Source: a virus. From it: a DNA stretch of 42,752 bases. Below the pieces are notes generated by a model. That model saw nothing but the letters and a program-made list of their open reading frames with translations. It was not told the DNA's origin and ran no database searches. A program made the translations under genes and the position numbers. The DNA lies in IMG/VR virus record IMGVR_UViG_3300017719_000031, positions 1 to 42,752 of that record, one strand, 5' to 3'. Positions 34,449 to 38,037 of this stretch are shown here, one piece after another (the stretch's first letter is position 1; each line of letters opens with the position of its first letter).

Positions 34449-36803
34449 TTAAAAGTTTAGTTTCACCTGTTCAGGCTCAGTTTCTATAAATTCTATCATC
34501 TTTCCAGCAGCATTCCTGGTTATGATCGGCTTGGTGTCGTACTTAAACTTACCAAAGCTATCAAGCCACTTGTAGAACTTGCTATGAGAAAGCTTGAACT
34601 TTCCATACGGTCCATAGTCTGGATACTCCTCAGTAAAGTTGTTATAAAGGTCCATGCCCATACTTGCAGACCCCTTGTTTGTGTAGTAGTTGTCCTTTCC
34701 GTCAGCCCATTCCCAGAAGTCTGAGTTTGTTTCTGCAATAAAGTTCCTTACCTTAAGGTTCTTGAACTCGCATACAACAAGACCACTCTTCAGGTATAGT
34801 TGAAGGTTATCGATCATGTAGTTGTCAAACTTTGACCATTCAGAATCTGTCCACTCGCTGAATAACATGTGGCCAAAGTCACTCTCAGGCGTGAAGCTTT
34901 TAGTATAGTACTGCTTGAACTCCAGGTCCCACTTACGTCTCTCAAAGCTATTTCCAGCACCCTTGATCGCATAGTTTGTGGTTATAACAATCTTTGGAGA
35001 GTACTCAAAAGGTATGTGTATCTCGTCTTTGTTCTTCTTCTCAAGGGTAATACCCTCTGTGATTACAGAGAATAGTCTCTCGAAATCAAAATTCTTTGCG
35101 ACGTCATCAAACACAAGGGTCTGTGTATCTACCTGTACCCTCTGGTACGGGAAAGATTTTTGAAATGAAAATCCCTTACCATCAATTATAACCATCTTCT
35201 TAATGTGACTTATTGACTTGACAAAGATACCCTTACCAGTGCCACCTTCAGGATGGTCCGATATAATCTCGTCATTGAGTATCACGGCAGGGCAGTAGCT
35301 TGCTGGCTTGTGTGAATGCATAAGGTATCCAAGAGTACTCTCCATAGATCTTGTACTATCAGATCTGTCTCCAGATATATTCTTAATGAAGTACCTGAAC
35401 TCTGAATCCTTAAAGTCAGACTTTATGAAGTCCCTGTCTATCTTCTGCTTCTCCCATACATGACCTTTTAGGTTCTTATAAGAAATGGTTTCTACGCTAT
35501 CCCTTGTGACCTTTACGGCACAATTTAAGTAGTAAAGATAAGCCTCGTCAGTGTTGTCCACCATGAATTCTGGCTCTATCCTTGAGACATAATTTAAAAA
35601 TGTCTCCTGAAAAAACTTTGTATTGAGTGCAAAGAAGTTGTATACCGACATATCGTCGATACCTAGAAGGAAGTCAAGTACAAAATCCTTTATCATCTCC
35701 TCGTTCACGTCAGATATGGTGTTGTCAATCACCCTGACGAATACAAAGTTATTACTACCTACTGGGTAGTACTTGTAGAAACCATTGTCCTGCAAGTATA
35801 GTCTAAACAGATGAGGTACAAGATCAATCTTGCCCTTGCTGTTCTTTATCCAAAACTCGTTGAAGTCTACAGTCTTAGCGACCTCGTCGACATCGACGTC
35901 CTTGTTACTGTCCTTTATCTCACCAAGAGGGACGCCCATCTTTATATTATTGACTATCTCTGACGTCTTATCAATGTCCTCATAGAACTTAGTGTTGTGT
36001 CCAGACATGTTCTTGTAAGCACTTCGTACTATTGCCATGATCTCTGAAGACTTTTCGCCAGTTGAGTCGTATGAGTTCAGCGTGGTGAATGCCTCGTCCT
36101 GATTGATTCCAAACTCATTCAGTGCGGATGCCAGGATAAAAAGGTTGTTGTTTTTTTGACCCTGAACCATACCATACTTCTTGTCCCACCATAGCGATAG
36201 CCTGCGTATTATTTCATTAGAGTCAGAGATCTTTATGGTTGCCTTTGACTTTGTCACAAACTCTGTCTCGTTCTCCATGTCCTTCCATACCGAAGAAAGT
36301 TCATTTACATATAAATCAGGATCGTAACTCTCGTAACATACCCTTGATATATTCTTGCATGAGGTATCGAACTCATCGCATGCATAGTACTTCTCCAGTG
36401 ACTTGAAGTACTTCTTATGATTCTTTGCATCCTTAGGTATACGTACCAGTGTCTTGATACCATCTCCAGATGGGGATGTGAATAGGCAGTACGTAAACTC
36501 GTCCTGCATCAGCTCCACCCTCTTTGAGTGTAGGTGCTGCTCGTCCCTAAAGCCATCGAAGTCAAGGCACATGATACCACTGTGATCTATGATAGAGCTG
36601 TCACGCCTATCTGAAAAGGTTCCAGAGAAGCAGATGGCAGGAAGCTGTTTTTTCAACTGATTCCTACCACCCTTATCTACCTCTAACCTAACCTTACCTA
36701 TTAACTCCTTCGAAGATCCGTCACGGATACGATCTATCGCCCTATCTATGTCTATATGGTAGGGTTTGTCTGTCTCGTTTATTGTCTTAAAGTATGTTAT
36801 CAT
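34449..36803 (-). CDS. Primase-helicase: BT4734/VirE-type N-terminus with SF3/D5-like helicase
   Basis: This 784-residue protein probably primes and unwinds phage DNA. The N-terminal part (about 40-180) matches the BT4734-like/VirE N-terminal domain seen in Bacteroidota mobile elements: AICFSGTF, IMCLDFDGF (acidic pair), FTSPSGDGIKTLVRI and CKNISRVCYESYDPDLYVN. A helical linker with a PriCT-like segment (about 195-250) follows. The C-terminal ATPase has Walker A PEGGTGKG (about 517-524), Walker B TLVFDDV (about 561-567) and a sensor strand KIVITTNY. These are the features of D5-type helicases. No separate primase or polymerase gene is visible, so this may be the phage's only replication initiator enzyme in the window. 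Confidence 0.85.
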   Translation of the reverse strand: MITYFKTINETDKPYHIDIDRAIDRIRDGSSKELIGKVRLEVDKGGRNQLKKQLPAICFSGTFSDRRDSSIIDHSGIMCLDFDGFRDEQHLHSKRVELMQDEFTYCLFTSPSGDGIKTLVRIPKDAKNHKKYFKSLEKYYACDEFDTSCKNISRVCYESYDPDLYVNELSSVWKDMENETEFVTKSKATIKISDSNEIIRRLSLWWDKKYGMVQGQKNNNLFILASALNEFGINQDEAFTTLNSYDSTGEKSSEIMAIVRSAYKNMSGHNTKFYEDIDKTSEIVNNIKMGVPLGEIKDSNKDVDVDEVAKTVDFNEFWIKNSKGKIDLVPHLFRLYLQDNGFYKYYPVGSNNFVFVRVIDNTISDVNEEMIKDFVLDFLLGIDDMSVYNFFALNTKFFQETFLNYVSRIEPEFMVDNTDEAYLYYLNCAVKVTRDSVETISYKNLKGHVWEKQKIDRDFIKSDFKDSEFRYFIKNISGDRSDSTRSMESTLGYLMHSHKPASYCPAVILNDEIISDHPEGGTGKGIFVKSISHIKKMVIIDGKGFSFQKSFPYQRVQVDTQTLVFDDVAKNFDFERLFSVITEGITLEKKNKDEIHIPFEYSPKIVITTNYAIKGAGNSFERRKWDLEFKQYYTKSFTPESDFGHMLFSEWTDSEWSKFDNYMIDNLQLYLKSGLVVCEFKNLKVRNFIAETNSDFWEWADGKDNYYTNKGSASMGMDLYNNFTEEYPDYGPYGKFKLSHSKFYKWLDSFGKFKYDTKPIITRNAAGKMIEFIETEPEQVKLNF

Positions 36804-37017
36804 TCTTTCTCTGCATTAAAAGTTTAGTAATATATGCCGTAGCATCCATCAACTCTTCTAGCAGATGCACAAGGAAGTCATCGTCATTATTGTCATGTAG
36901 TGTGGTATCGTACTTAATGATACCATCACTACTTCTTCTATCATAATGAGCCTTCAAGGTCTCGATCACCTTGTCTCTCTTCTCAAGCTTATCTGTACGT
37001 GATGAAAAATATTTCAT
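36787..37017 (-). CDS. Small helical protein, 76 residues, unknown (weakly MazG-like)
   Basis: The product has a basic N-terminal half (MKYFSSRTDKLEKRDKVIE) and an acidic helix DDDFLVHLLEELMDATAYITKLL. The EELMDA..Y pattern recalls the metal-binding helix of all-alpha NTP pyrophosphatases such as MazG, but the second acidic motif of that family is not evident and the protein is short. It lies between gldL and the primase-helicase and overlaps the latter by 17 bases. I would not rely on the enzyme call. Confidence 0.55.
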   Translation of the reverse strand: MKYFSSRTDKLEKRDKVIETLKAHYDRRSSDGIIKYDTTLHDNNDDDFLVHLLEELMDATAYITKLLMQRKNDNIL

Positions 37018-37023
37018 AGTTAT

Positions 37024-37569
37024 CTATTTAAAAATATCTAACATCGAACTGTACTTATCGTTTATATGTTTTAAGGTAAACGACAATTCTTCCATAGAAT
37101 TTTTGTAAGAACGTGTATGTAAGGAGGATGTCGTAAGATCATCTGAGATTGTATTTAAAGAAGATGATATATCTTTAATTTTTTCAGACAAATCATTTAT
37201 AGATTCTTTTAAATTAATGACATCAATATCATTTAATTCATTTATAGAATTTATGTTACTTCCATTTGATTTCTGTAATAAATCATAAAGACCTACATCC
37301 TCAATTTCATCAACACCTTTACCTTCGGTGTCATCAAGCTCTGGGAAAACCCTAGACCAATCTTTATCCAAATGAACTGGTTCCATGACAGACATTACAA
37401 ATATTAATGCTTCTGTGCTTAAACCTACAATCAACATTTCAGAAGCAAATGGCCAGTGCATAATTTTAAATAATGCACCCATAATAACAACTGCTGCCCC
37501 TAATCCGTATATGTACTTCATGATATTTTTCCATGACTTACTTGCAAAAAAACTTTTAGTATTACTCAT
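37024..37569 (-). CDS. gldL: GldL homologue: type IX secretion / gliding motor subunit carried by the phage
   Basis: Within the first about 80 of 181 residues this is unmistakably GldL-like. The sequence runs YIYGLGAAVVIMGALFKIMH (first membrane helix), a short loop, MLIVGLSTEALIFVMSVMEP (second membrane helix) and DWSRVFPEL. Host GldL forms a pentamer around GldM in the inner membrane and converts proton flow into gliding and type IX secretion. Charged membrane residues important in GldL are kept here: Lys35 and His38 after helix one, Glu53 in helix two and Glu63 at its end. The rest (about 80-181) is a charged coiled coil with no match I recognise, and the protein is shorter than typical GldL. 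ATG at 37569 is preferred over one at 37599 because the latter lies in the terminator. Confidence 0.88.
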   Translation of the reverse strand: MSNTKSFFASKSWKNIMKYIYGLGAAVVIMGALFKIMHWPFASEMLIVGLSTEALIFVMSVMEPVHLDKDWSRVFPELDDTEGKGVDEIEDVGLYDLLQKSNGSNINSINELNDIDVINLKESINDLSEKIKDISSSLNTISDDLTTSSLHTRSYKNSMEELSFTLKHINDKYSSMLDIFK

Positions 37570-37588: not shown

Positions 37589-37620
37589 AAAAAAAGCACC
37601 GACTACCATACAGTCGATGC
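37589..37620 (-). terminator. Intrinsic terminator just before gldL
   Basis: On the minus strand a nine-pair stem (GCATCGACT with AGTCGGTGC, one G-U pair) with a seven-base loop runs directly into seven T residues. It ends 20 bases upstream of the gldL start, after the DUF3127 gene. It either ends the upstream transcript or works as an attenuator controlling gldL. Confidence 0.88.
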
Positions 37621-37623
37621 TAC

Positions 37624-37671
37624 AGAGTTTTTGCCGAGTATGGTCAGCTAACCAGCAGAACTCTAACTGCT
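37624..37671 (-). ncRNA. Possible RNA pseudoknot upstream of the terminator
   Basis: Reading the minus strand, AGCAG (37671-37667) pairs with CTGCT (37658-37654). The loop between holds AGAGTT (37664-37659), which can pair with AACTCT further downstream (37629-37624). This gives stems of five and six pairs with a two-base crossing loop and no bases between the stems, the geometry of an H-type pseudoknot. The long second loop contains a small hairpin (GGTT/GACC). The structure lies between a gene end and a terminator and does not overlap a coding region. Only pairing by eye supports it; no known riboswitch class is recognised. Confidence 0.45.
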
Positions 37672-37692
37672 TTCATCATGAACACACAATGC

Positions 37693-38037
37693 TTAGAACG
37701 GAAGATCTCCGTCCTTATCTTCAGTTGTAACTGGCTGTGGGGATGGTTCAGAGGACCCATCTATTCTCCATGCCTCTAGTGTGTTGAAGTACTTAACCTC
37801 ACCACTTGGTGATGTCCACTCACGCCCTCTAAGATTAAACGATACCTCTACCTCTTGACCCTCTATCATAGAGTCCAAAAGTGTCGTCTTGTCCTGCACC
37901 GTCTGAAACGATATGGTTTGTGGATACTTCTCTGCCTGATCATTCAGTACAAATGTTCTCTTCTTAAACTTTTCGCTTACGTGTTCTGTGTCGAAGATCT
38001 TTTCCACGACTCCTTTCATTTTAAATTGATTACTCAT
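37693..38037 (-). CDS. DUF3127-family single-stranded DNA-binding-like protein
   Basis: This 114-residue protein matches the DUF3127 family of Bacteroidota. The characteristic sequence elements are KGVVEKIFDTEHVSEKFKKR, FVLNDQAEKYPQTISF, VQDKTTLLD, VEVSFNLRGREW, and KYFNTLEAWRI. The fold is expected to be an OB-type domain. The C-terminus is acidic and ends in DGDLPF, the same type of tip that SSB uses to recruit replication proteins. It lies directly after the PD-(D/E)XK nuclease gene with one intervening base and is led by a conserved A-rich leader. Use as the phage's SSB is likely. Confidence 0.85.
   Translation of the reverse strand: MSNQFKMKGVVEKIFDTEHVSEKFKKRTFVLNDQAEKYPQTISFQTVQDKTTLLDSMIEGQEVEVSFNLRGREWTSPSGEVKYFNTLEAWRIDGSSEPSPQPVTTEDKDGDLPF

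Follow-up and report, generated by a model that had tools for sequence, protein, structure and literature searches.

We find that the minus strand of a 42,752-nt stretch of viral DNA (IMG/VR record IMGVR_UViG_3300017719_000031; hereafter the window) encodes an RNA that, judging from paired changes among its relatives, almost certainly folds into an H-type pseudoknot (P1/P2) with a third hairpin (P3), the loop of which forms a kissing helix (K) with that of the adjacent terminator. Comparison with relatives establishes the predicted fold, K, the strand specificity, the position, the spacing and the single copy. The element is a new RNA family in which known motifs occur in a new combination. 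By analogy with guanidine-IV RNAs, we propose that it may be a loop-docked attenuator of a replication operon (o76-primase-helicase), a reading that we regard as an even call.

Read 5' to 3' on the minus strand, the element is AGCAG-UU-AGAGUU-CUGCU-GGUUA-GCUGA-CCAUAC-UCGGC-AAA-AACUCU-GU-AGCAUCGACU-GUAUGGU-AGUCGGUGCU, followed by the U-tract (Table 1). The initial annotation had described an H-type pseudoknot with a P1 of 5 bp, a P2 of 6 bp, a two-base L1 and abutting stems; all of these are present, P2 abutting P1 with zero gap, and compensatory changes back them. It had missed P3 (37648-37633) and the contact of P3 with the terminator loop: the 6-nt P3 loop is exactly complementary to GUAUGG of that loop, giving K between 37643-37638 and 37611-37606. 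In the window the nested fold alone outscores 196 of 200 shuffles (z = -2.34). GGUU of the joining segment can alternatively pair with AACU, forming a competitor of P2 (P2') that RNAalifold predicts; P2' is possible in all members, yet its pairs show no covariation.

Table 1. Features of the RNA element and its neighbouring genes in the window.
Feature	Position	Strand	Remarks
Folded RNA element (P1/P2 pseudoknot, P3 and terminator)	37671-37589	minus	
P0, weak 5' hairpin CAUUGUG-UGUU-CAUGAUG	37674..37691	-	just after DUF3127 stop codon; peripheral
P1 5' strand AGCAG	37667..37671	-	covariation C-G/U-A, A-U/G-U/U-A
L1, crossing loop UU	37665..37666	-	invariant 40/40; letters partly set by search pattern
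P2 5' strand AGAGUU	37659..37664	-	pseudoknot strand inside P1 loop; 14 distinct P2 helices
P1 3' strand CUGCU	37654..37658	-	pairs with 37671-37667; covariation
Joining segment GGUUA	37649..37653	-	invariant 40/40; letters partly set by search pattern
P3 5' strand GCUGA	37644..37648	-	100% paired; 3 pairs with both-sided changes
P3 loop CCAUAC, 5' half of K	37638..37643	-	covaries with terminator loop
P3 3' strand UCGGC	37633..37637	-	covariation
A-run of L3 (AAA) continuing into P2 3' strand (AA)	37628..37632	-	invariant except one A to G
P2 3' strand AACUCU	37624..37629	-	pairs with 37664-37659; 0-3 nt before terminator stem, 40/40
Predicted terminator hairpin AGCAUCGACU-GUAUGGU-AGUCGGUGCU	37595..37621	-	best-scoring of 8 local terminators
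Terminator loop GUAUGG, 3' half of K	37606..37611	-	covaries with P3 loop
Terminator U-tract, 7 U	37589..37595	-	
DUF3127 gene (upstream), phage single-strand DNA-binding protein (SSB) as predicted from fold	37693..38037	-	PF11325; phrog_4932
GldL_N gene	37024..37569	-	PF22827, E 7e-29; in some relatives separates element from o76 gene
o76-domain gene	36787..37017	-	usual downstream gene of element family
Primase/helicase-like gene (BT4734-like_N)	34449..36803	-	

Upstream of the core, P0 is 96% paired in 19 close relatives and is not kept in distant types. Its AUGAUG starts an 11-codon frame in the window, as a leader-peptide attenuator would require, but the length and sequence of this frame differ between relatives and P0 is absent from the distant types. 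The lack of conservation of the frame largely refutes this reading, and we give it almost no weight.

Using the upstream DUF3127 protein as a query, we collected 30 loci from IMG/VR (L002-L031) in which the element lies right behind the DUF3127 stop codon, and a degenerate pattern added two further close loci (L119 and L122). Across the 12 distinct cores of these close relatives, every cell of P1, P2 and P3 holds a standard pair (180/180), as against at most 48% for slid partners, and on the tree of the DUF3127 gene every change in these helices replaces a standard pair with another standard pair. Across the close relatives, the upstream gene is only 48-88% identical to the window at third codon positions, whereas a core of about 25 nt hardly varies. 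G-U pairs in the element are kept on one strand only, the strand that also carries the U-tract, which argues for function at the RNA level. An element acting as DNA, such as an origin or a protein site, could explain why every member carries it between the genes for SSB and primase, but the other strand would contain A-C mismatches where this one has G-U pairs, and we think a DNA-level element very improbable.

Searching with a covariance model of the close set recovered significant homologues (E about 1e-6 to 1e-5) from phages further removed, and a pattern distilled from these homologues matched 83 viral stretches, one of them by chance. In total the element is present on about 80 IMG/VR contigs as 40 distinct sequences of 84-87 nt; the carriers are a family of uncultured viruses that probably infect Bacteroidota. 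The initial annotation had suggested covariation in related phages as a check, and the compensatory changes seen in the close relatives extend to this wider set: 98.6% of the cells of P1, P3 and K are standard pairs (slid partners, at most 50.5%), 10 of their 14 pairs have both-sided changes, and none of 500 shuffles reaches the observed paired percentage or covariation score. K alone (37-42 with 69-75 of the 40-sequence alignment) is 97.9% paired. P2, counted separately, has 5-7 bp in 40 of 40 sequences, formed by 14 different helices.

Natural K pairs include CCAUAC/GUAUGG, CCAUAA/UUAUGG, ACAUAC/GUAUGU, CCAUGU/ACAUGG and CUACAUU/AAUGUAG, and when the terminator tails were permuted among loop types the observed complementarity was reached in only 24 of 40,320 cases. 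Since shuffle counts ignore relatedness, changes were also counted on a tree of the SSB and exonuclease; here the changes in K are compensatory and independent, and include C-G to A-U, C-G to U-A, U-A to C-G, A-U to G-C and several at the sixth pair. The weak spot is L132 and L158, whose K is down to about 4 bp when read in the aligned register. A single strong copy is present per record in 20 of 20. The family search pattern fixed AGTTA, TTCT, GGTTARC and AAAA and left free the variable pairs of P2, P3, K and the terminator, so the invariance of the fixed letters is partly a product of selection. A relaxed viral pattern hit at least 27 new contigs, all by chance among the matches listed, and the family therefore looks saturated in IMG/VR at this divergence. 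L090, L120, L121 and L140 were rejected as members, being chance matches by context or absent fold.

The strong intrinsic terminator described initially is the highest-scoring one locally, and its U-tract ends at 37589, leaving 19 nt to the GldL ATG (37569). In all 40 members a G+C-bearing hairpin is followed immediately by a U-tract, as in an intrinsic (Rho-independent) terminator, and the stem is intact and stable in every one (about -9 to -17 kcal/mol). The stem follows P2 without any gap in 25 of the 40 and after 2-3 nt in the other 15. The start codon of the next gene lies 11-30 nt past the U-tract in 40/40 members, mostly at 17-22 nt, a distance so short that no promoter fits between them; the earlier claim that this interval lacks a promoter thus holds throughout the family. 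With no promoter room, the downstream genes must be fed by read-through, unless the U-tract does not terminate. In the distant types B, C, D and E (L050, L141, L145) the 3' arm of the terminator often has a bulged base, which separates the outer stem from the pairs close to the kissing loop.

The same gene order is found in all members examined: o128, o163, exonuclease, SSB, a variable segment, the element, another variable segment, primase and helicase; for this reason the neighbours are not independent evidence. The immediate upstream neighbour varies between the SSB gene, a 58-aa ORF, DUF5856 and a tRNA (Lys, Tyr or Arg), and where it is a tRNA, it ends 13-17 nt before the core. Examples of tRNA-Lys, tRNA-Tyr and tRNA-Arg just before or near the element are L132 2844-2915, L151 5105-5188 and L150 744-816; some of the element-adjacent copies look degenerate and were missed by ARAGORN. 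The downstream gene in most lineages is an o76-domain gene (70-120 aa; a 76-aa ORF in the window's own clade) that precedes primase and helicase. In the window's clade either gldL is inserted or o76 is lost with primase next, and the downstream gene also differs in L142. Based on these arrangements, the earlier idea of an attenuator stands as our best guess, but its assignment to gldL does not, as many relatives have the 76-aa ORF or primase directly downstream. The other initial suggestion, that the structure is just the 3' end of the DUF3127 message, does not hold generally, since many relatives have a tRNA or some other gene upstream. Fixed spacing to the following gene, together with changing upstream neighbours, instead favours a leader element.

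For the flanking genes themselves, we looked for clues to function. The DUF3127 product ends in DGDLPF, resembling the acidic DLPF/MPF tail of SSBs, and a fold search with its AlphaFold (AF2) model matches bacterial SSBs in the PDB; its predicted fold is that of an SSB, and Pfam still lists DUF3127 as unknown. The o76 domain, with the motif RSxxGIxKYNTTxDR...HLxEELMDAxxY and two predicted helices, occurs alone or fused to an SH3-like part (type C phages, for example L141 3197-3556), and neither sequence nor fold searches find a Pfam or PDB relative. GldL_N is directly downstream of the element in a patchy 8 of 32 close-relative contigs, and it is nearly absent from GenBank phages, with one weak match. 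GldL belongs to the motor of gliding motility and type IX secretion; here its N-terminal domain is encoded by a phage, where it might interfere with host gliding or secretion.

The proposed mechanism is as follows. The element would act in cis as an RNA switch, or at the least as a tuned gate, within the leader of the o76-primase-helicase operon, into which gldL would have been inserted in the window. Transcription from the SSB (or tRNA) side would make the pseudoknotted domain, with P1/P2, the UU of L1, the A-run of L3 and P3, and the P3 loop would then kiss the loop of the directly following terminator. RNA polymerase presumably terminates at the U-tract; docking, with P2 and the terminator stem only 0-3 nt apart, would alter termination by changing how the hairpin is completed, and stabilising or melting the fold would set read-through into the replication genes. 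Strain on the terminator would be plausible given so short a junction. As to direction, we lean towards docking that promotes read-through, as it does in guanidine-IV; P2' could be a second state that competes with P2.

No conserved pairing with either terminator arm exceeds shuffles, that is, there is no conserved antiterminator. The classical scheme of mutually exclusive hairpins is thus unsupported, and docking of the terminator through its own loop is the better fit, which argues against a textbook attenuator and for a guanidine-IV-like mechanism. In guanidine-IV RNAs, which are ON switches, an upstream loop pairs with the terminator loop, and this kissing has been proposed to put strain on the terminator's outer pairs (PMC7736828, PMC10907184). 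As in guanidine-IV (GGAM-1), the hairpin whose loop docks lies upstream, the terminator stem is within the fold and the whole precedes protein genes (PMC7736828). However, here an H-type pseudoknot carries the docking hairpin, the sequence differs and has no Rfam match, and the genes downstream are o76, gldL and primase (phage replication genes) and not guanidine genes. The element thus appears to resemble guanidine-IV in mechanism and is not a member of that class. In a second comparison, PreQ1 class I riboswitches of the B. subtilis type also place an H-type pseudoknot with an A-rich L3 before an intrinsic terminator (PMC11625349), but in our element L3 holds a whole hairpin that kisses the terminator, Rfam gives no match and no antiterminator was found. 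Near the element, no queuosine genes were seen. In the env8 cobalamin riboswitch (L5-L13), an expression-platform hairpin likewise kisses an upstream domain (PMC10907184); there docking hides the ribosome-binding site, whereas in our much smaller element the hairpin that docks is an intrinsic terminator.

Some observations count against a gate. K can coexist with a formed terminator loop and the terminator stem is stable in every member, so the fold could simply be a released 3' end; in addition, the downstream gene is inconstant in the window's clade and in L142, and K is short in L132 and L158. The main rival, which we consider possible though improbable, is a domain for RNA stability or processing. 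The fold and its terminator would form a compact 3' end shielding the SSB mRNA or tRNA transcript made upstream; alternatively, once read-through RNA has been cleaved, they would cap the operon mRNA at its 5' end. This reading draws on the terminator hairpin being integral to the fold via K and on upstream genes that end within a few tens of nucleotides. The invariant UU of L1, the U-A and U-A that begin P2 and the A-run may also resemble triple-helix stability folds; base triples occur in H-type pseudoknots (PMC11625349), and U.A-U and A-minor contacts would confer exonuclease resistance. Protection of this kind is harder to reconcile with the diversity of upstream partners, including tRNAs, whose trailers normally get removed, and it leaves the fixed spacing to the next start codon unexplained. 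Moreover, several of the sister phages L032-L049 have only a plain terminator (for example, GCCCACCGACAACCATCGGTGGGTTTTT) in this place, directly behind the DUF3127 stop, which indicates that the knotted part was gained or lost.

Another use of the released transcript would be in trans, as a terminated RNA of about 100 nt that acts on other RNAs via its loops. A single copy, the terminator end, strong folding and the tRNA genes adjoining it in several phages are all compatible with such a small RNA, but the loops would be consumed by the intramolecular K and no conserved promoter of the Bacteroidota type (TTTG-N-TANNTTTG) precedes the element; we doubt that it acts this way. We are similarly sceptical of a protein operator, in which the phage SSB (DUF3127) would bind the pseudoknot and adjust read-through into, or translation of, the replication genes. 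The SSB fold of DUF3127 prompts this analogy, and in the window UUAAAUUAAA comes after the terminator, but AT-rich leaders are common in Bacteroidota phages. In T4 and RB69, gp32 recognises an RNA pseudoknot and then UUAAA repeats (PMC535899), and T4 gene 32 shares with our element the link between an RNA pseudoknot and a phage SSB gene. The T4 operator, however, is 5' of the SSB gene and has neither terminator nor kissing loop, and our element is downstream of the SSB gene in every member examined, often with genes between. Returning to the loop-docked attenuator, we suggest tentatively that it may represent a new riboswitch-like phage class: a ligand- or protein-sensing pseudoknot that gates a replication operon by docking a loop into the terminator loop. 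It would be a second independent use of the mechanism proposed for guanidine-IV, and what it senses might be a nucleotide, the phage SSB or the replication state.

These results add to the known RNAs a covariation-supported family absent from Rfam, with a rare architecture in which the terminator hairpin is the kissing partner inside a pseudoknotted domain. The family also offers a second, compact and sequence-diverse system for the question, raised by guanidine-IV, of whether docking blocks or helps termination, with natural compensatory K pairs available for swapping. It suggests that, in an uncultured-phage lineage, expression is controlled at a point between SSB/tRNA and primase/helicase.

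Outside the family, Rfam 15 gives no family match at the gathering threshold and only chance matches at E<=10, with no riboswitch among them. Searches of the open-access literature found no description of the element. With blastn, the element and its flank have no match in INPHARED, or only chance ones, and the exact core of the window's type matches 8 times in 84,980 prokaryote genomes, in each case by chance inside unrelated sequence. Among cultured phages that bear the SSB or the primase (L183-L186 and L131), none has a significant covariance-model match. The cultured Flavobacterium phage elemoF (L186, 3620-3700) has a weak model match (E 6) with UUCUGUCUGGUUAACUC. This site lies behind a tRNA-Met and ahead of replication genes, and it is possibly a very distant relative, or a chance match.
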